Positions 2,890 through 23,152 of a DNA stretch of 32,477 nt are shown here, in pieces (the first letter of the stretch is position 1; the number at the start of each line of letters is the position of its first letter). The notes under the pieces are model-generated. The model did no database searches, was not told where the DNA came from, and saw only the letters and a program-made list of their open reading frames with translations. The stretch comes from a virus: positions 1 through 32,477 of the IMG/VR virus record IMGVR_UViG_3300035698_008049; one strand, given 5' to 3'. A program made the translations under genes and the position numbers.

Positions 2890-3675
2890 TTATTTATTTA
2901 AGTTGATAAATGGCATTGTACTTCCAGGAACAAAAGTTATTGGTAATTGACCATTCCATTTCTCAACTGCTTTTAGATTAACATATTCTTTACCGCCTTG
3001 TTGGTTGATAGCCTCTGCTTTAATCTTAACGGCTCTAGCTTCGGCCTCAGCGGTAGTAATTAATTGCTGTGCTTCAAACTCAACTTGTGCTAATTTGTTT
3101 TGTGCTGTTAGTGCGTCTTGCTCTGCTTTAACCTTTGCTTCAATTGATTTGTTAAATTCCTGTGAAAAATCAAAATCTGTAATAAAGATATCATCTAATA
3201 TAATACCATTCTTTTCAAGATTGAGAGTAAGTGAATCTCGTAGATTTGTTTTTACTTCTTCCCGTTTTGTAATAAGTTCCTCTGCTGTATATTGAGCAGT
3301 TGTTTTCTTTACAAATTCCTGAATAGCAGGTTCAATTACTCTATCGCTATATTTCTTACCAACTTCTTGATAAAGTTTATTCACCTTGGTTGGATCTAGA
3401 TGATAGTTGATCGCCACTTTAGATGTCACTAGCTGTAAATCCTTTGATGATGCTGACACTTTTTTTTCTTCTTTCAGTGTTCGCACATCCATTTTTTTAA
3501 CTTTCTCCTTTATTGGGAAAATCCAATGGATTCCCTCATCTAGGATTTCATCTTGTACTGCTCCTAGTTCTAATACAACACCACGTTCACCTGCGTCAAT
3601 CATAACTAGTGGATTGACAACTAGGAAAACAATTAGTGCAACTACACCAATTATTGTTGCGATAATTCTTTTCAT
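2890..3675 (-). CDS. band-7/SPFH (prohibitin-like) membrane protein
   Basis: The 261-residue protein has an N-terminal membrane helix (about residues 4-22) and then the SPFH start 'MIDAGERGVVLELGAV' and 'LDEGIHWIFPI'. A long alpha-helical, Ala/Glu-rich coiled coil follows (residues about 175-230), and the end matches prohibitins ('LPITFVPGSTMPF'). Such proteins form large membrane-bound rings that scaffold proteases or membrane microdomains. Its ATG overlaps the TGA of a 31-residue membrane peptide, so the two are coupled. Phage SPFH proteins may help resist superinfection or support membrane integrity, and the family has been linked to RNA-repair gene sets. Confidence 0.88.
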   Translation of the reverse strand: MKRIIATIIGVVALIVFLVVNPLVMIDAGERGVVLELGAVQDEILDEGIHWIFPIKEKVKKMDVRTLKEEKKVSASSKDLQLVTSKVAINYHLDPTKVNKLYQEVGKKYSDRVIEPAIQEFVKKTTAQYTAEELITKREEVKTNLRDSLTLNLEKNGIILDDIFITDFDFSQEFNKSIEAKVKAEQDALTAQNKLAQVEFEAQQLITTAEAEARAVKIKAEAINQQGGKEYVNLKAVEKWNGQLPITFVPGSTMPFINLNK

Positions 3676-3767
3676 ACATCTTTTTTTCCGCCAGTAATTT
3701 GCTTATACACAAAATATCCAGCTAGAAATATTATTATTAGTAAACTTATTTCAAATAAAATTCTCAT
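3672..3767 (-). CDS. micro-membrane protein, 31 aa, coupled to band-7 gene
   Basis: The product begins MRILFEISLLIIIFLAGYF and ends in a basic, Gly-containing tail 'KQITGGKKDV'. It has one membrane helix with the basic tail predicted inside. Its TGA stop overlaps the band-7 start (ATGA), which is the best evidence that it is a real gene. It could regulate or join the band-7 ring. It is too short for family assignment. Confidence 0.6.
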   Translation of the reverse strand: MRILFEISLLIIIFLAGYFVYKQITGGKKDV

Positions 3768-3768
3768 A

Positions 3769-4050
3769 TTATTCTATTTTATATTTTTTAAAACCTTCAC
3801 CTTTTAACATTATTTTTGGGATTATATATTGATATGGATAAATAAGTATGGACATAAACATATCAACCATATCTGGTTCAGTTGTACTCCACGCTAACTT
3901 TTCAAAGTTGTATGCATACTTGATTGGGTGATGTACTAGTCCAAACTTCTTTTTAAACTTAACCACGTTTTCTATATCGAGTAATGTAAACGTCAACCCA
4001 GAAATTAACAGAATTGTAATAAATACTCCTAGTATTACTAGTATTATCAT
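3769..4050 (-). CDS. membrane protein of unknown function, 93 aa
   Basis: One N-terminal membrane helix (MIILVILGVFITILLISGL) is followed by a soluble, aromatic-rich domain of about 70 residues. An upstream in-frame ATG at 4071 would overlap the preceding gene. I prefer the ATG at 4050, which is preceded by GTAAATAAT like other starts here and leaves a 1-nt gap. I do not recognise the family. It lies in a run of small envelope proteins ending with the band-7 gene. Confidence 0.6.
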   Translation of the reverse strand: MIILVILGVFITILLISGLTFTLLDIENVVKFKKKFGLVHHPIKYAYNFEKLAWSTTEPDMVDMFMSILIYPYQYIIPKIMLKGEGFKKYKIE

Positions 4051-4688: not shown

Positions 4689-6557
4689 CTATTTCAATAA
4701 ATTAATTATTGTATCTATTTCTAGTTCTTCAATTGATAGATTAATATCACACTCTTCAACATCATCAACTATTTCTGCACCTGAATCAATTAATATGTCT
4801 TTTAGATTTATACCATTTTTATATGATTGTTTTAGATATTCTATAGTATGTTCAGTATATTCAGTATTCGCAGATGTTCTTGATTTACCTAACCCTGTTT
4901 CAGTGAAATAAAATCTACACTCATCTGGCGCGGATATCAATAAACCTAATGTCTTTTGGTCTATACCCATTTTTGTATCAACTGTCGTAATTACATTATT
5001 TGGGTCAAGCATATAATTCTCATTGATACTACCAGCTTTATGTTTTGCAATAACTATACTAAATGGAACTTCTTCGTTGCGTGTATAGTTATTAACCATT
5101 AATAGGTTTGTCTCGTTTTTTTGTTTCTTAACATAATATAATTCTGTTGCTCCTTTTGGTCTTGGTGCATCTGTTATATCCCCAGAAAATAATATACTTC
5201 TGTCTTCATTTCTATATCTTGAATCCCACCCTAATTTTCCATCAATTGAAAGCAAAGATAAATCTAAATCAACTCTACTATTATACTCAGAATTAACTTT
5301 AAGATTACACCAGTGAATACCCAATACCATGTCTGAATCAACTGTTACATAGCTACCAGATGGGATACACCCAATAAATTGTTTTTCAGTTGCTGGTAAA
5401 GTATAGGTTATATTATCAGGAATAAATATTTTCTTTCCTTCTATATTCTTGCGAACATCTTCACAAATTGATTTTTCAATAATATGAAATATTTTTTTAG
5501 CTAATTTCTTATTTTCAAAATTGAATTCTTTTGCATAGCCTTTACCATTTCGTACTCTGTATAGAATAGATTTTGTATTATTCATTCTATATTTCAGTGC
5601 GTAGGCTAATCTAATTTTTCTAAAAATATTTACTCTATCCAATTCTTCTGCTAGTTTGTTTTCATCTATTACTTCATTATTCTTAATTAATCCAGTAATT
5701 GTATTTAGATAATCTTCAGCCATTGGTTTATGGTGTAGTGTGGCTTGCCGTCTTATATCATTGATAATTACTTTAGATTTTTTATTAGTTCTGAATGCTA
5801 GAAATAATGGTTTAAATCTATAAAATATTTCAGCCAATGGACTAGTCCCATTAACACTAATATATTTGTCAAATAATTTACTTGATGGGTTACTTTCTTT
5901 GATAGTTGAAATAAGATTTCTGTTTTTAATCAAAAGTGTTTGTTCTGTTGCACAATAAATAGCATAACGTAAAAACTCAACTGCATTTTCTGGAACAATA
6001 CTCAGTTTTCTATATAAAGAAATTTTAACTTCTTTATTTTTAATTTCGTGTACTTCTTTTTCTTCTATTCCTACAAAATCAATAATTTCTAAAATATCCT
6101 TAACTGTATCTTCTTTTAGTGCTATACCTGTTCCTACTAGCTCAAGTACTTTTTCTTTTAGCTCATCTTTGGTAATTCCTCTAATAACTACTAATTTGAT
6201 ATCTTCTTTTAGTTCTGGAATTTCTAGTTTTTCATTTGGGATATATACAGATTCTTCACTATATATTCCCATTGCTTCAAAACCATAGGTTGTAAAATAA
6301 TGAATAAGTTGCTCCATCACTAATTGTTCTATACTTGCTTCTTTTATTTTTTTCCATGATTTATGGAAAGTGTTGTTTAGTTGTTCAGGCGTAAGTCCGA
6401 TAACTAATTTCAAAAGTTCTTCTTCTGAGTAGTTATAAATTACTTCAGGTGAAAATATAAATCCACGTTTTATGGTTTCATTCATTAATTTTTCACTTGC
6501 TTTTTTTGTTCTTTTTGACTCTATTACAAGAGCTTTAAAAAGTTTGATTGTGCTCAT
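4689..6557 (-). CDS. large protein with TerD-like C-terminal domain (MXAN_6230/SCO0854-like)
   Basis: The 622-residue protein has an all-helical N-terminal two thirds without recognised motifs. Residues about 395-520 form a beta-rich domain with 'GIHWCNLKVNSEYNSRVDLD' and then 'GWDSRYRNEDRSILFSGD' and 'TDAPRPKGATELYYV'. This pattern resembles the TerD-fold C-terminal region of MXAN_6230/SCO0854-type proteins, whose Asp residues bind calcium in TerD. No RING finger is visible. Ter proteins are tied to stress and phage responses. The family call is from memory of the motif. The gene follows the structured-RNA region, whose last helix ends about 9 nt before this ATG. Confidence 0.55.
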   Translation of the reverse strand: MSTIKLFKALVIESKRTKKASEKLMNETIKRGFIFSPEVIYNYSEEELLKLVIGLTPEQLNNTFHKSWKKIKEASIEQLVMEQLIHYFTTYGFEAMGIYSEESVYIPNEKLEIPELKEDIKLVVIRGITKDELKEKVLELVGTGIALKEDTVKDILEIIDFVGIEEKEVHEIKNKEVKISLYRKLSIVPENAVEFLRYAIYCATEQTLLIKNRNLISTIKESNPSSKLFDKYISVNGTSPLAEIFYRFKPLFLAFRTNKKSKVIINDIRRQATLHHKPMAEDYLNTITGLIKNNEVIDENKLAEELDRVNIFRKIRLAYALKYRMNNTKSILYRVRNGKGYAKEFNFENKKLAKKIFHIIEKSICEDVRKNIEGKKIFIPDNITYTLPATEKQFIGCIPSGSYVTVDSDMVLGIHWCNLKVNSEYNSRVDLDLSLLSIDGKLGWDSRYRNEDRSILFSGDITDAPRPKGATELYYVKKQKNETNLLMVNNYTRNEEVPFSIVIAKHKAGSINENYMLDPNNVITTVDTKMGIDQKTLGLLISAPDECRFYFTETGLGKSRTSANTEYTEHTIEYLKQSYKNGINLKDILIDSGAEIVDDVEECDINLSIEELEIDTIINLLK

Positions 6558-6617
6558 ATGTTTTTTAGCGGATAGTAATTATGTTTTGGCACTGGGCCTC
6601 AGCCCAGTAATTATAGT

Positions 6618-6830
6618 TAATAGGAACTATCTATGCTATTAAAAATTATGTTTATTATGTAAACGAGGAAAAGGTTGGACTCGAACCAACGACCTCCGGC
6701 CTTAAAAATGCATTCATAGGAACTTCATTTGCCAAAAGCGAAAAGTATAATACGGCGCTCTACCAACTGAGCTACTTTCCCAATGGACGGCGAGCAGTAA
6801 AGTAAATTCCATTATTTTTTAATAGGAACT
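6618..6830 (-). repeat. three copies of AGTTCCTATNA in the structured RNA
   Basis: The 11-mer AGTTCCTAT[T/G]A occurs at 6820-6830, 6714-6724 and 6618-6628 (minus strand). Copies one and three follow analogous stems that differ in sequence but keep pairing (AGCAGT/ACTGCT and GATAGT/ACTATC), with the same AUA/C internal loop outside. The middle copy lies in the insertion of the tRNA-like domain. Conserved loop sequence with changing stems is what a structured RNA motif looks like. Confidence 0.6.
6666..6781 (-). tRNA. tRNA-like gene with ~43-nt insertion in the anticodon arm, isotype undetermined
   Basis: The acceptor stem GGGAAAG/CTTTTCC, the D arm GCTC-AGTTGGTA-GAGC and the T arm GTTGG-TTCGAGT-CCAAC are all canonical. 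The total length is 116 nt instead of about 73. The outer anticodon stem keeps only CCG (6753-6755) opposite CGG (6696-6698). Between them lies an insert with a hairpin (AAATG/CATTT) and the motif AGTTCCTATGA. A 7-base anticodon loop cannot be drawn without removing the insert, so no isotype is given; the 3' part TTTTTAA would suit tRNA-Lys. It may be an intron or a tRNA-like domain of a larger RNA. Confidence 0.7.
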
Positions 6831-6843
6831 GCTTATGCCATCC

Positions 6844-6940
6844 GTAGTTATCAATCTCCTAACTAAATTAGTTAGGAGTCTTGTCTAGAAAGGAGTTGAC
6901 GTTTATGATCCCGATATATAATCAGGAGATTAATAACTAC
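6844..6940 (-). ncRNA. RNA element closed by a 16-bp helix, 5' domain of the transcript
   Basis: GTAGTTATTAATCTCC (6925-6940, minus strand) pairs with GGAGATTGATAACTAC (6844-6859) with one G-U pair. A second hairpin lies inside with arms CTCCTAACT/AGTTAGGAG. Its GGAG/CTCC ends compete with the outer helix, which could allow two states. The inner part shares a pattern (TCGRGAT...TCCTTT) with the element at 18985-19066. Confidence 0.6.
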
Positions 6941-6960
6941 TTTTTTAATGTTCTATTTAT

Positions 6961-6989
6961 ATTATATAGTATATTTTAAAAAATGTCAA
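6961..6989 (-). promoter_or_regulatory. strong sigma70-type promoter
   Basis: On the minus strand TTGACA (6984-6989) and TATAAT (6961-6966) are both perfect consensus hexamers with a 17-nt spacer that ends in ATACTA. The start point should lie near 6954. It sits just after the polymerase stop codon and drives the structured RNA and the operon down to base 1. Confidence 0.85.
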
Positions 6990-6994
6990 TAGCA

Positions 6995-9196
6995 TTAAAA
7001 CAATTGATTTTGTTGACTTTTCTTAGACCTTACTTTTTTCTCTGAAAATATATTCCATTCAAACTCAAATGTATTTTTTAAAATTCTATTGAGTAATGAG
7101 AATATTTTATTGTTCCAATAGTATGTTCTATCAAATTCTCCTGTATAATCTTCTTCTAAAATTACTTCTTTTGCATCATTATTGGTTACTATATATTCTA
7201 TTTGGTTTGATTGCATTTCGCCATATTTTTCAATAATTTTTTTAGCCGCTCGTACATGTGGTAAATCACTTTCATATTTTTCAACTGGTTTACTTAATCT
7301 CATTCGAATAATTAAATCTTTACTTTCAATTTCACTATTTAAAACTATTTCTTTTTTCTGTTTCATAAATTCAATACACTCATCAATATTATAATTTTCA
7401 TATAATATATTTCGTATTATCTCTTCTTGAAACTTAGCTCCAATTTTTACTGTGTTACTTTTTAGAAGTTCAAGCCCTTTAGTTTGTAGCTTATCAACTT
7501 TCTTACCTTCAACATCGCACACTCTAGCACTATAATTCTTTTTATCTACTAGTATCATTTTAGCATATTTTTTCTCATACTCCAGTACTATATGGTTATC
7601 AGTTATTCCATATTTAGTTCTTAACTCTTGGGCTAGTTTGTCATGAAACAATTTCAAGTATATATGTTTATCTTTTTGTAGTTTATTATCTTTATCTTTA
7701 CAAAAAACAGAATCAGTATCACCATAAATTATTTCGAAACCATGTTTTTCAAAAAAGGCTTTAGTATAGTTTATACACCATTGCCCGAATTTTGTTATAC
7801 TTTCAGCAACTTCGACTGAATAATATCTACTTCTTTTTTGTCCTAAAATACCATAAATTGAATTAGCAACATATTTACAAATTCTTTCGTTACTTGCAAC
7901 TGTTTCATATTCAGGAGTACCATCTTGTCCACTATTCGCCATGTCCTTTCGTTGCTTTTTATATTTAGCACGTTTACCAAGTAGTCCTTGAACTGTTAAT
8001 TTTATAGAACTATCTTTTTTAGATGTAAATTTAACTCCTGTTCCTGGATTTGTTATATCTCCATTTAAATCCACTGCATCAAATCCAATATTACCTGTAA
8101 GAATTAAACTTGGATATAGACTTTTGAAATCAAATATAAATACATTATTATGTATACCTCGTACTGGTTCTAGTACAATCGCCCCAACATATTTAGATCC
8201 ATCATCTACTACTTTATCTGGTTTAGTTGGACAGTACACCATTCTGTCGTGTGCTTCACGCAATATATAGTTATCAAGTAGTTCTGAAATATAAAATCTA
8301 TTTATAAAAGTGTGACACCACATGCATTGATTAATCATTAGTTTCAAACATCCAGTTTTATCATCTAAATCTTTCAGTAATTGACAATCCTCCAAATTAT
8401 ATTTTTTTAATGTTGGTTTATCGTTATTATACAAGTCAATTATTTTTCCGTCATATTTTACTTTACCTCTACCTAAAAAATATTGCGAAATAAACTCTAG
8501 TGAAAACTTATAAACATTTGGTTCTTCTTTAAACATTTCCATGAACCGGTACATCATATCAGCATGAGCAACATCATTCCAAACATACTTGCGTATTTTA
8601 TGAAATTTACATCTTGCCTTAATATATGGAACATCAAAATTAGTTCCATTCCATGATACTAAAACATCATATTTTTCAAATAGTTCTAATGATTTAGTTA
8701 ATATTGTTTTTTCATTTGTGCTTGTTATAAAAAATTGTTTTCCTTCTTGGTCAACTCCAGCAATAGAAAGTATTTTATCACGCCCTATTTCTATTTTTCT
8801 GTTAGTGTCATCTGTTTCAATATCAAAATAAAGTAATTTATAATTTTCATCTATTTCAATTTTATTATCTAGGCAATATCTACGGTCTGAACTTAAATCT
8901 CCTTCATAATGTTTAATTCCTATTTTATCTAGGAATTTAATTAAATGCTTTCGACCATCATCATGATAAAAGTTATTTAAATTATCAGCGTACAGTCTTA
9001 CATATTCTTTTCCTATTTCCCATTGAGTAACAATTCCTGCTTTTAATAGTTTATCTACAATTTCTTTACTGAAATCTTCTTTATTAATAAGTAAATACCA
9101 TTGGAAATTAGGAATAACCTTTCTTTTCTTTTCACTATTTTCTCTGTAAACTAGTATAACATCTTTATTATTTGTGTATGAGTTTATATATTTCAT
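6995..9196 (-). CDS. family B DNA polymerase with 3'-5' exonuclease
   Basis: The 733-residue enzyme carries all expected motifs in order. The exonuclease motifs are Exo I 'FDIETD' (D125, E127), Exo II 'NGTNFD' (183-188) and Exo III 'YNLED' (266-270). The polymerase motifs are A 'DFKSLYPS' (356-363), B 'KYVANSIYG' (441-449) and C 'YGDTDS' (491-496), followed by 'KKY'. It should be the replicative polymerase of the virus. The last residues, QNQLF, match the pentapeptide with which bacterial polymerases bind the beta clamp, and a clamp is encoded nearby at 10946-11971. Its ATG overlaps the TGA of the methyltransferase gene. Confidence 0.95.
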   Translation of the reverse strand: MKYINSYTNNKDVILVYRENSEKKRKVIPNFQWYLLINKEDFSKEIVDKLLKAGIVTQWEIGKEYVRLYADNLNNFYHDDGRKHLIKFLDKIGIKHYEGDLSSDRRYCLDNKIEIDENYKLLYFDIETDDTNRKIEIGRDKILSIAGVDQEGKQFFITSTNEKTILTKSLELFEKYDVLVSWNGTNFDVPYIKARCKFHKIRKYVWNDVAHADMMYRFMEMFKEEPNVYKFSLEFISQYFLGRGKVKYDGKIIDLYNNDKPTLKKYNLEDCQLLKDLDDKTGCLKLMINQCMWCHTFINRFYISELLDNYILREAHDRMVYCPTKPDKVVDDGSKYVGAIVLEPVRGIHNNVFIFDFKSLYPSLILTGNIGFDAVDLNGDITNPGTGVKFTSKKDSSIKLTVQGLLGKRAKYKKQRKDMANSGQDGTPEYETVASNERICKYVANSIYGILGQKRSRYYSVEVAESITKFGQWCINYTKAFFEKHGFEIIYGDTDSVFCKDKDNKLQKDKHIYLKLFHDKLAQELRTKYGITDNHIVLEYEKKYAKMILVDKKNYSARVCDVEGKKVDKLQTKGLELLKSNTVKIGAKFQEEIIRNILYENYNIDECIEFMKQKKEIVLNSEIESKDLIIRMRLSKPVEKYESDLPHVRAAKKIIEKYGEMQSNQIEYIVTNNDAKEVILEEDYTGEFDRTYYWNNKIFSLLNRILKNTFEFEWNIFSEKKVRSKKSQQNQLF

Positions 9197-9876
9197 AATT
9201 TATCAAACCATTGTTTTTTTATTCTTTCTGATATTTTAGCTACCATCAATGGTGGTACAGACATACCACATATATAAATTGGTTGTAATTTACCATGTTT
9301 ATAATCTAATGGAAATGAACTTGCTTTTAATATTTCATTTGTGAATAAATGTCGTTCAACCTCATAATGCGTATAATCATTACTACCTGCACGTAATGTT
9401 GGAATTGGATAATTTGGTGATAATTTAAAATAAGTAAATCCATTCCCTTTTGGATGAACATCTGCCACACTTCTGCCCGGTTTAATTTTCTTCCAATATT
9501 TTAAATAACCAGGGATTATTCCATATGCATTCTTATTCCCATTTTTTTCTTCAATTTCTCTGTATGGTATTTCTTTTTCATTAAAGTTTAAATCTAAATA
9601 TGGCATTTTTGATATTAGATTTTGTCTTCTACCAGGTATATTATTTACTAGATCTTTTCGTATACCAATAAAAAATACCCGTTGTCTTTTTTGTGGAACC
9701 CCCATTTTAGATGAGTTAAGTAACCATACGTTTAGTTCATATCCTGCTTTTTCGAAGTCTTTTATTATTCTTTGGGTATATTTTATTGCATTGCCAAGTA
9801 ATATGCCTTTTACATTTTCTGCTATTACTACTTTTGGTTGTAATTTTTTAGTCAAATCTATAAAATCAAAAAACAA
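9193..9876 (-). CDS. C5 cytosine DNA methyltransferase, C-terminal part (separated by frameshift)
   Basis: The frame holds the later motifs of Dcm/Dnmt-type enzymes: 'IAENVKG' (motif VI), 'PQKRQRVFFIGIR' (motif VIII), a target-recognition region, 'TLRAG' and 'GMSVPPLMVAKI' (motif X). It continues upstream without stop to 9936 in the -1 frame of the N-terminal part. The end of that part and the start of this one fit together as '...KFREGQKNQVLDTLFFDF'. No ATG is available, only TTG at 9876, so separate translation is doubtful. The stop TGA overlaps the polymerase ATG. Confidence 0.85.
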   Translation of the reverse strand: MFFDFIDLTKKLQPKVVIAENVKGILLGNAIKYTQRIIKDFEKAGYELNVWLLNSSKMGVPQKRQRVFFIGIRKDLVNNIPGRRQNLISKMPYLDLNFNEKEIPYREIEEKNGNKNAYGIIPGYLKYWKKIKPGRSVADVHPKGNGFTYFKLSPNYPIPTLRAGSNDYTHYEVERHLFTNEILKASSFPLDYKHGKLQPIYICGMSVPPLMVAKISERIKKQWFDKL

Positions 9877-9881
9877 TGTGT

Positions 9882-10247
9882 CTAATACCTGATTTTTCTG
9901 TCCTTCCCTAAACTTTTTTTCTTTCCCCAGTCTTTCTCACGATTTCCTGCCATACTAAAATTAGAACAAGGGGGTGACCCATCCAATATATCTAAGTCAT
10001 ATAGCTCTTTAGGCAAGTCTTCCCTATTTTTAAAGTCTTGTATTCCTTCACAATATAAATACTTAGGATTAAAATTTTCTTTATATACATCAATTAGTTT
10101 TTTATCTATTTCATTAATGCCAATAACATCATATCCTGCAAGTTTATATCCCATACTAGATCCTCCTCCACAGGCAAAACAACTGAATACTTTTAATCCA
10201 TTTTTTTCTACATTAGCTAAATCAGTTAAATTCCATTTATAATTCAT
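9882..10247 (-). CDS. C5 cytosine DNA methyltransferase, N-terminal part
   Basis: The frame holds motif I 'FSCFACGGGSSMG' (AdoMet binding, residues 21-33) and motif IV 'DGSPPCSNFS' with the catalytic Cys94. It then runs into a seven-A run and stops 10 codons later. A one-base shift (-1) at that run (about 9913-9919) restores a complete enzyme of about 350 residues. A homopolymer length change in the genome or assembly is the simplest cause. A programmed -1 slip on the A run is possible but would be unusual for this family. Confidence 0.88.
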   Translation of the reverse strand: MNYKWNLTDLANVEKNGLKVFSCFACGGGSSMGYKLAGYDVIGINEIDKKLIDVYKENFNPKYLYCEGIQDFKNREDLPKELYDLDILDGSPPCSNFSMAGNREKDWGKKKSLGKDRKIRY

Positions 10248-10258
10248 TTGAGTGTGTG

Positions 10259-10945
10259 TTAATTATAATATTTTATATATTTATGTTCTTTAAGTAAACA
10301 TTTCTTTTTACTTCGCTTATCAATGAACTTTATATACCTAAATTGTCTTAATTTTTCACTAACAGCACGTTCTTTATTTTTTTGTAGAAAAAAAGCAGAT
10401 TTACTTAAATTAGGGTTTCTTGTCATTAAACTATTATGATATACTTCATCATCTAATTTCCAAAAAATTGATGTGTGCTCCCCGTAATAATCAAAGCTAC
10501 ATTCCTGATATACTATTCCAAAACAACCACATCTCTCGTCTGCAAATGATTGTATCCATTTTATTTTTCTATACTTACTTTTTATAAATTTTATAGAATA
10601 ACTTATAGCTCTACTTTCTGGAAATATGCAGTCATTATCTTCAATCCACATCCTGTTTAATTCAAGATATTCATCTATTTTAGTATCTAAAACTACAGAA
10701 GAACATGATGCTGGATTCATTGCGTATCCATACTGTAGTATTCCTACTAAATTATTATTATAAAAAACACCTAAATGTATATATGATGCATTATAGAATT
10801 TTTTAGAATAATGATTTTTTTTTATTATATTATTTGCAATATTTCTATCAACTTCCTTTATAAAAAATAATTCATCACCAAAACCAGTAACTTCTTTTTT
10901 GCCAAATAAAACATTTTGTTCACTATAAATATAATCTTTTAACAT
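10259..10945 (-). CDS. Mom-like DNA adenine modification protein
   Basis: The 228-residue protein has the GNAT-like layout of phage Mu Mom relatives. It shows 'NHYSKKF' near the N-terminus, 'LGVFYNNNLVGILQYGYAMNP', then 'LELNRMWIED', and the hallmark 'WIQSFADERCGCFGIVYQEC' followed by 'FDYYG'. Mom converts adenine to an N6-carbamoylmethyl derivative and blocks many restriction enzymes. Here it lies between the clamp and a cytosine methyltransferase, which makes a DNA-protection role likely. The exact base product cannot be read from sequence. Confidence 0.75.
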   Translation of the reverse strand: MLKDYIYSEQNVLFGKKEVTGFGDELFFIKEVDRNIANNIIKKNHYSKKFYNASYIHLGVFYNNNLVGILQYGYAMNPASCSSVVLDTKIDEYLELNRMWIEDNDCIFPESRAISYSIKFIKSKYRKIKWIQSFADERCGCFGIVYQECSFDYYGEHTSIFWKLDDEVYHNSLMTRNPNLSKSAFFLQKNKERAVSEKLRQFRYIKFIDKRSKKKCLLKEHKYIKYYN

Positions 10946-18092: not shown

Positions 18093-18166
18093 TGGAGAGA
18101 CCAGGAGTTGAACCTAATCTTATGGTTTTTCAAACCATCGTGCAAAACCACTTACACCATCTCTCC
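18093..18166 (-). tRNA. tRNA-Phe (GAA)
   Basis: The acceptor stem GGAGAGA/TCTCTCC is perfect. The anticodon stem ATGGT/ACCAT closes loop TTGAAAA (anticodon GAA). The T loop is TTCAACT on a stem with two G-U pairs. The discriminator is A and CCA is not encoded. It stands alone, about 17 kb from the main array. Confidence 0.92.
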
Positions 18167-21367: not shown

Positions 21368-21394
21368 ATTATTTTTTTAATTACTTATATTTAT

Positions 21395-21423
21395 ATTATA
21401 TATTACTTTTTAAAAAATGTCAA
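21395..21423 (-). promoter_or_regulatory. strong sigma70-type promoter
   Basis: TTGACA (21418-21423) and TATAAT (21395-21400) are perfect, with a 17-nt spacer. The core is nearly identical to the promoters at 6961-6989 and 23124-23152. It overlaps the end of the 48-codon gene at 21403-21549. Confidence 0.85.
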
Positions 21424-23092: not shown

Positions 23093-23123
23093 ATGTTTTC
23101 TTTTCTTATTTACTTATATATAT

Positions 23124-23152
23124 ATTATATAGTATATATAAGAAAATGTCAA
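23124..23152 (-). promoter_or_regulatory. strong sigma70-type promoter
   Basis: TTGACA (23147-23152), a 17-nt spacer and TATAAT (23124-23129) are all consensus. A second TTGACA lies about 12 nt further upstream (near 23164-23169) without its own good -10 box. This promoter starts the early region after the terminator of the virion operon. Confidence 0.85.

Follow-up and report, generated by a model that had tools for sequence, protein, structure and literature searches.

The window analysed here is a viral record taken at its full length of 32,477 nt (IMG/VR record IMGVR_UViG_3300035698_008049). On its minus strand, a family-B DNA polymerase gene (6995-9196) is followed by a gene for a 622-aa protein (4689-6557) that joins a HEAT-like helical-repeat N-terminal domain to a TerD domain (residues 405-571) and is referred to below as the HEAT-TerD protein. 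The stretch between the two genes, 6557-6995, had been described as gene-free and indeed holds no ORF of at least 60 aa. On the minus strand, 6989-6558 comprises a promoter and a structured RNA of about 397 nt. The promoter, already recognized in the preliminary description, is a perfect sigma-70-type sequence that can be read directly, with TTGACA at 6989-6984, a 17-nt spacer and TATAAT at 6966-6961. Judged from its letters, this promoter (6989-6961) is predicted to drive the RNA and the downstream HEAT-TerD gene. Promoter-like sequence occurs again on the minus strand at 21370-21423 and 23114-23152, where it precedes small ORFs and provides a candidate phage promoter consensus. Elsewhere in the window, a C5 cytosine methylase is split over two adjacent ORFs (9193-9876 and 9882-10247), both of which match PF00145, and the methylase pieces adjoin a Mom-family DNA modification protein (10259-10945; PF25680, E 3e-60).

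The presumed transcript (minus strand, 6954-6558) has a folding energy of -109.6 kcal/mol, against -79.7 +/- 5.2 kcal/mol for dinucleotide shuffles (z = -5.7; 0 of 100 shuffles equal it). The successive helices noticed earlier are present, including GGATGGC/GCCGTCC and the 16-bp helix at 6844-6940, and the G-U pairs within these helices establish the minus strand as the RNA, as had been proposed. At the 5' end, the helix 6940-6924/6860-6844 closes a multi-hairpin domain (6844-6940, minus) recognized from the inverted repeats I1 and I7 and the MFE fold; this domain is not among the clamp copies described below and is a predicted fold of the window sequence alone.

A clamp motif and the tRNA bodies it carries

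The helices of the RNA are copies of one motif, GGC-AWA-nnnnnU-UCCU...UA-nnnnn-C-GCC, here called the clamp. The pattern GCAWANNNAGUUCCUAUKAA has three matches within 225 nt of the RNA, against an expectation of 0.24 for the entire window and fewer than three in every shuffle, and each match is accompanied by a complementary second strand, ACUnnnCGC. The parts of a clamp are, in order, a distal stem that includes GGC/GCC and extends past it, an internal loop of AWA facing a lone C, a 6-bp helix whose last pair is U-A, an asymmetric loop with UCCU across from U, and a variable proximal hairpin. The likeness of GAAGTTCCTAT to an arm of the yeast FRT site is taken as coincidence.

Copies 1 and 3 are of the hairpin type, in the order strand A, loop, strand B. 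Copy 1 (6784-6844, minus; GGATGGC-AUA-AGCAGU-UCCU ... ACUGCU-C-GCCGUCC) is present in the MFE fold and scores 55.2 bits (E 1.2e-12) with the covariance model R2, a score that is not independent evidence because the copy is among the 92 training sequences of that model. Copy 3 (6562-6642, minus; AGC-AUA-GAUAGU-UCCU ... ACUAUC-C-GCU) carries a long inner hairpin, is likewise present in the MFE fold, scores 42.2 bits with R2 (E 6.1e-9), and ends adjoining the start codon of the HEAT-TerD gene. In copy 2 (6713-6747, minus; ACUUUU-C-GC-loop-GGC-AAA-UGAAGU-UCCU), the order is turned round to strand B, 8 nt, strand A, so that the motif is circularly permuted.

Covariation bears out the clamp structure. 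Across 92 hairpins and 13 pairs, 90.6% of cells are paired, with a covariation score of 0.639 against at most 0.212 in slid controls. Double-sided changes affect 314 cells versus 104.5 in shuffles, a count that ignores relatedness in the shuffles, for which the slid controls allow. The core helix was used in choosing the copies and the distal stem was not; the latter is paired in 93% of copies versus 44% expected, with AU, GC, UA and CG pairs all common.

Copy 2 occupies the anticodon-loop position of a tRNA-like domain (6781-6666, minus) with full acceptor, D and T arms and an elbow. The Rfam tRNA model (RF00005) gives this domain 50.2 bits, in keeping with the embedded tRNA-like domain proposed earlier; model R1 gives 98.2 bits, a score that is not independent evidence since the domain is also an R1 training sequence. 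The usual 7-nt anticodon loop has given way to about 54 nt, copy 2 included, and the domain at 6781-6666 escapes ARAGORN. A separate tRNA at 18093-18166 of the window, apparently tRNA-Phe (anticodon GAA) with an irregular D arm, is found by the Rfam model and missed by ARAGORN. Across 31 tRNA-like sequences, 96.1% of cells in 29 pairs are paired and the covariation score is 0.481 against at most 0.150 in slid controls; 21 pairs are changed on both sides versus 13.7 in shuffles, which ignore relatedness where the slid controls allow for it. The cloverleaf is nearly invariant, with 99.5% of acceptor, 99.2% of D and 99.4% of T cells paired. No 7-nt anticodon loop with a decoding anticodon was found in these RNAs: the clamp stands in its place, the flanks vary, and some have too few bases for one. 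CCA is encoded after the acceptor in 5 of the 31.

The RNA is modular, and clamps and tRNA parts are combined in four topologies. In (a), the arrangement of the window and about 36 others, the clamp takes the anticodon-loop position of a tRNA in normal order. In (b), a circularly permuted tRNA, 3' half first and with a short loop closing the acceptor, lies inside the proximal loop of the clamp (L029 and L095, twice each, and phage S-CRM01); L072 resembles this arrangement, with a less regular D arm. In (c), a whole tRNA is held by its acceptor stem in the clamp loop (L112; L011 3609-3720), and in (d) the clamp loop holds a T arm only (L199, L202, L213, L029). Topologies (a) and (b) would give the same three-dimensional object, a tRNA elbow suspended from a clamp through the anticodon arm, and would differ only in where the chain opens; different chain topologies appear to lead to one form. 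Plain hairpins lacking a tRNA make up 242 of 284 clamp copies, and the descriptor used detects a tRNA-derived module in only 33 of 140 nonredundant loci, so a tRNA body is not obligatory at each locus.

In the tRNA cluster of one jumbo phage (L011), a whole tRNA in a clamp (3609-3720), a clamp in a tRNA anticodon loop (3733-3848) and a T arm in a clamp (3855-3943) lie side by side. Single clamps also fill the exact gap between two tRNA-Asp genes in two large-phage contigs (L023 5970-6066; L011 12195-12263). Clamps could account for the insert-bearing tRNA-like or 'pseudo' tRNAs of large phage genomes.

The HEAT-TerD protein and its genomic tie to the RNA

The AlphaFold2 model of the 622-aa protein, built from an 82-sequence alignment, has a pLDDT of 93 and a pTM of 0.90. 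Residues 405-571 adopt a TerD fold (3ibz, Z 11.1, rmsd 3.3, 148 aligned residues), and other TerD chains match at Z 9-10 (2qng, 2qz7 and 2kxt, the last at Z 9.2). To our knowledge, the biochemical role of TerD domains is poorly understood. The N-terminal 395 residues or so form a helical-repeat domain (pLDDT 87 when folded alone) whose only long structural alignments are with Ro60, from the Thermus phage phiLo (9l5y, Z 5.8, 189 residues) and D. radiodurans (2nvo, Z 4.8, 187 residues), at scores that lie below the level excluding chance and that a common arrangement of helices could also give. The full model aligns with the Ro60 structure 9nep at Z 3.8 over 278 residues, likewise below that level, and Foldseek returned no match to the N-domain alone at E 0.001. 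Sequence comparison gave no homology to TROVE, with no PF05731 match and an hhalign probability against TROVE of 0.5%, no better than reversed controls; the C-terminal domain is TerD, not vWA. Sequence searches of PDB, Pfam and PADLOC gave nothing useful, with no Pfam match to the whole protein, and NCBIfam touches the TerD part only, far under its cut-off. Large proteins, remote TerD fusions with a C-terminal TerD part and a predicted fold resembling that of the window protein, also occur in Campylobacter phage CP21 and Lactobacillus phage LpeD (L282, L283); in the stretches examined there, neither the clamp nor the tRNA-plus-clamp RNA was matched, only a tRNA of ordinary length.

Relatives of the RNA were sought by a strand-A pattern scan of 2.9 million viral contigs. 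The yield of this first scan about equalled that expected by chance for the length of the pattern, on the author's estimate, and only loci with a paired second strand, about 17, were followed. One candidate (L013) was set aside, having only an imperfect second strand and matching no model anywhere along its 132-kb record. In two other scan loci, two or three tandem clamps lie directly before a homologue of the 622-aa protein. Protein and profile searches then yielded at least 190 viral and at least 192 cellular loci. Cultured phages with the protein are S-CRM01, S-CBWM1 and Weasels2, and it is found in the gut phage Phass-1; the cellular loci include isolates of Chryseobacterium and other Flavobacteriia, Selenomonadaceae, Desulfobacterota, Ktedonobacter, and MAGs of Loki-, Pace- and Borrarchaeum.

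The RNA is tied genomically to this one protein family. A strict descriptor, CA.A[nnnnnU]UCCU with pairing to [Annnnn]CG, was applied to the sequence preceding the gene in 181 loci. It finds 352 sense-strand copies there, spread over 155 of the loci; shuffled sequence yields 0.8 and the reverse strand 2. At least one copy is present in 126 of the 140 nonredundant loci with enough upstream sequence, and R2 (E < 0.01) recovers copies in 11 of the remaining 14. Among 246 genomes of the family to which Chryseobacterium belongs, 69 encode the protein and 177 do not; an R1 score above 79 bits is reached by 56 of the former and by none of the latter. The distance from the end of the RNA to the start of the gene is 184-301 nt in the eight genomes for which it was computed. 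The modular clamp copies, the strict link to HEAT-TerD and the RNA-repair context discussed below all go beyond the preliminary description. Cultivable hosts, including Chryseobacterium and the cyanophage S-CRM01, allow direct tests.

Placement of the RNA and its possible function

In Flavobacteriia, the gene order is a divergent WYL regulator, RtcB, the RNA array, the HEAT-TerD gene, RlaP nucleotidyltransferases and Thg1. RtcB is also a neighbour of the gene in phage Weasels2, in a MAG of Pacearchaeota and in loci from proteobacteria and desulfobacteria; of 149 nonredundant loci, only 18 have RtcB no more than about 4 kb away. No recognized repair enzyme is encoded within the 32-kb fragment that forms the window. 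Several Flavobacteriia islands also encode a TROVE/Ro60 protein (PF05731) behind a separate tRNA-like RNA of about 130 nt, in which a different insert replaces the anticodon arm. This RNA lies directly upstream of the TROVE/Ro60 gene at L256 11640-13248, as well as in L257, L258 and L259, and may be an unannotated Y-type RNA. A single repair island can therefore house two pairs of RNA and protein that each include a tRNA body. Of the 69 genomes with the HEAT-TerD protein, 55 also have TROVE, compared with 22 of the 177 that lack the protein, an association that shared ancestry could cause.

The preferred interpretation, which is held to be probable with considerable room for doubt, is that the modular noncoding RNA and the HEAT-TerD protein encoded next to it make up a ribonucleoprotein that works in trans, displaying tRNA bodies so that tRNAs are protected or repaired. 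The clamp would be a repeated protein-binding motif recognized by HEAT-TerD, and one clamp, standing where the anticodon loop is otherwise found, would hold the anticodon arm of a tRNA body. HEAT-TerD and the clamps might then form a particle acting in trans and presenting tRNA bodies devoid of a normal anticodon loop. Most probably, such a particle would tether or present tRNA-processing and repair enzymes, or would occupy tRNA-anticodon nucleases; in either case, the tRNA pool would be protected during phage infection or RNA-damage stress. This functional reading is suggested by the analogy with Ro60 and Y RNA and by the place of the RNA in RtcB/RlaP/Thg1 islands. Weighing against the interpretation are the small share of loci with RtcB close by, the many loci in which the descriptor detects no tRNA-derived module and, within the limits of a 32-kb fragment, the want of a recognized repair enzyme in the window. 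By that analogy, the particle is best read as Ro/Y-RNA-like, not as homologous to Ro/Y.

The main rival is a cis-acting leader, in which the clamps are operators through which HEAT-TerD or another factor regulates its own mRNA and the tRNA-like part is there for RNase P/Z to process. The RNA is on the same strand as the gene and usually directly upstream of it, and at roughly half of the loci the gap between the last clamp copy and the start codon is 4-35 nt, as expected of an autoregulatory leader. An operator, however, needs no elaborate tRNA bodies, and the placement of other arrays fits a leader poorly. Arrays lie downstream of the gene in L085 (5894-6163), L109 (5822-6089) and L057 (7159-7629), and more than 1 kb upstream in L075. 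Two contigs of 424 and 240 kb were found by the RNA alone and predicted to encode the protein; both do, elsewhere on the contig. Each has copies beside the gene and others about 94 kb or more away (about 94 kb in the 240-kb contig), and in L011 the dispersed copies sit among 25 tRNA genes. Clamp copies thus occur inside phage tRNA clusters far from the gene. Two smaller contigs (21 and 74 kb) have the RNA and not the protein, and may be fragments. Arrays that are downstream, far upstream or dispersed argue for a trans-acting RNA, and the distant copies inside jumbo-phage tRNA clusters indicate that the RNA is not only a leader, making a cis-acting leader an unlikely account of the RNA.

The tandem arrangement of the RNA repeats, immediately before a protein gene, also recalls the tandem-repeat type III antitoxins, and the repeats might act as an antitoxin or decoy that neutralizes the protein or a nuclease, with no scaffold involved. 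There is a precedent in YrlA, for which it has been proposed that the tRNA-like domain inhibits an anticodon nuclease by competition (PMC7790460). Against this explanation, which is considered improbable, HEAT-TerD matches no nuclease family and combines TerD and helical-repeat folds, the modules are long and varied, and the islands are RNA-repair operons. A splicing or circularization element, with the clamp as an intron-like joint that leaves the tRNA or joins permuted tRNA ends, perhaps with RtcB, would suit the canonical intron site at which the clamp lies, the true circular tRNA permutations in L029, L055 and L095, and the RtcB neighbours of some loci, but it is highly implausible and was dropped because the anticodon loop is missing: the clamp abuts the anticodon stem in L211, L197 and L203, leaving too few bases for a 7-nt loop with U33, the flanking segments differ in length and sequence, and most clamp copies are plain hairpins that hold no tRNA.

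Should the trans-acting ribonucleoprotein prove correct, it would show that TerD domains can have a part in RNA biology and that two unrelated pairs of a protein and a tRNA mimic can be housed in RNA-repair islands. A bolder proposal is put forward tentatively, at somewhat less than even odds: that HEAT-TerD and the clamp RNA constitute a class of ribonucleoprotein not described before and distributed across phages, bacteria and archaea, with the clamp as an interchangeable socket for tRNA bodies (anticodon loop, circular permutation, whole tRNAs, T arms). This class would be a second, Ro-independent tRNA-mimic repair particle by which phages guard their tRNA sets.

Comparison with known systems

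The RNA is not a family in Rfam, and the protein is not one in Pfam, PHROGs, NCBIfam or PADLOC; an RNA family with no Rfam entry is thus tied to a protein family with no Pfam entry. In the open-access literature searched, no publication was found to describe TerD, RtcB and a tRNA-like RNA together as a single system. The Rfam 15 comparison recommended in the preliminary description found no match in the window RNA to GOLLD, ROOL, HEARO, OLE or raiA, nor to YrlA, even at E <= 10, and only tRNA (RF00005) exceeded its gathering score. Rfam likewise found only tRNA in 12 related loci. Weak plus-strand matches to HPnc0260 and RAGATH-12 and a minus-strand match to mcrA (E 0.5-5) are taken as chance. 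The suggestion that the RNA may be of a new family holds up as probable, with conservation and covariation both passing in relatives; the kinship with GOLLD or ROOL does not hold up. GOLLD and ROOL are alike in being large structured phage RNAs near or around tRNAs, but each is one large fold, whereas the clamp RNA is a modular series of short units.

Burroughs and Aravind reportedly described, in 2016, a tRNA-like RNA associated with the SPFH/Band-7 genes of RNA-repair operons. As reported, that RNA shares with the present one its position, a tRNA-like noncoding RNA beside a scaffold gene in RtcB operons, and the window too has a Band_7/SPFH gene (2890-3675), downstream of the HEAT-TerD gene. 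Relatives of the window Band-7 protein lie near the HEAT-TerD gene in only two other loci. In contrast to the Band-7-associated RNA as reported, the clamp RNA tracks the HEAT-TerD gene, a distinction drawn by genomic association. With that RNA in mind, the present find is placed with the known pairing of a tRNA-mimic RNA and a scaffold protein, and the stronger claim of a new class is kept apart.

Among TerD-family proteins, HEAT-TerD shares the C-terminal TerD fold and differs in fusing it to a helical domain of about 395 aa and in being linked to an RNA. The likeness to Ro60 (Rsr/TROVE) and Y RNAs such as YrlA is one of arrangement: both systems tie a helical-repeat protein to a tRNA-mimic noncoding RNA in RNA-repair operons that contain RtcB. 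Unlike Ro60, however, HEAT-TerD has no sequence homology to TROVE and carries TerD in place of vWA, and its RNA is built on another motif, with tandem clamps and permuted tRNA bodies.
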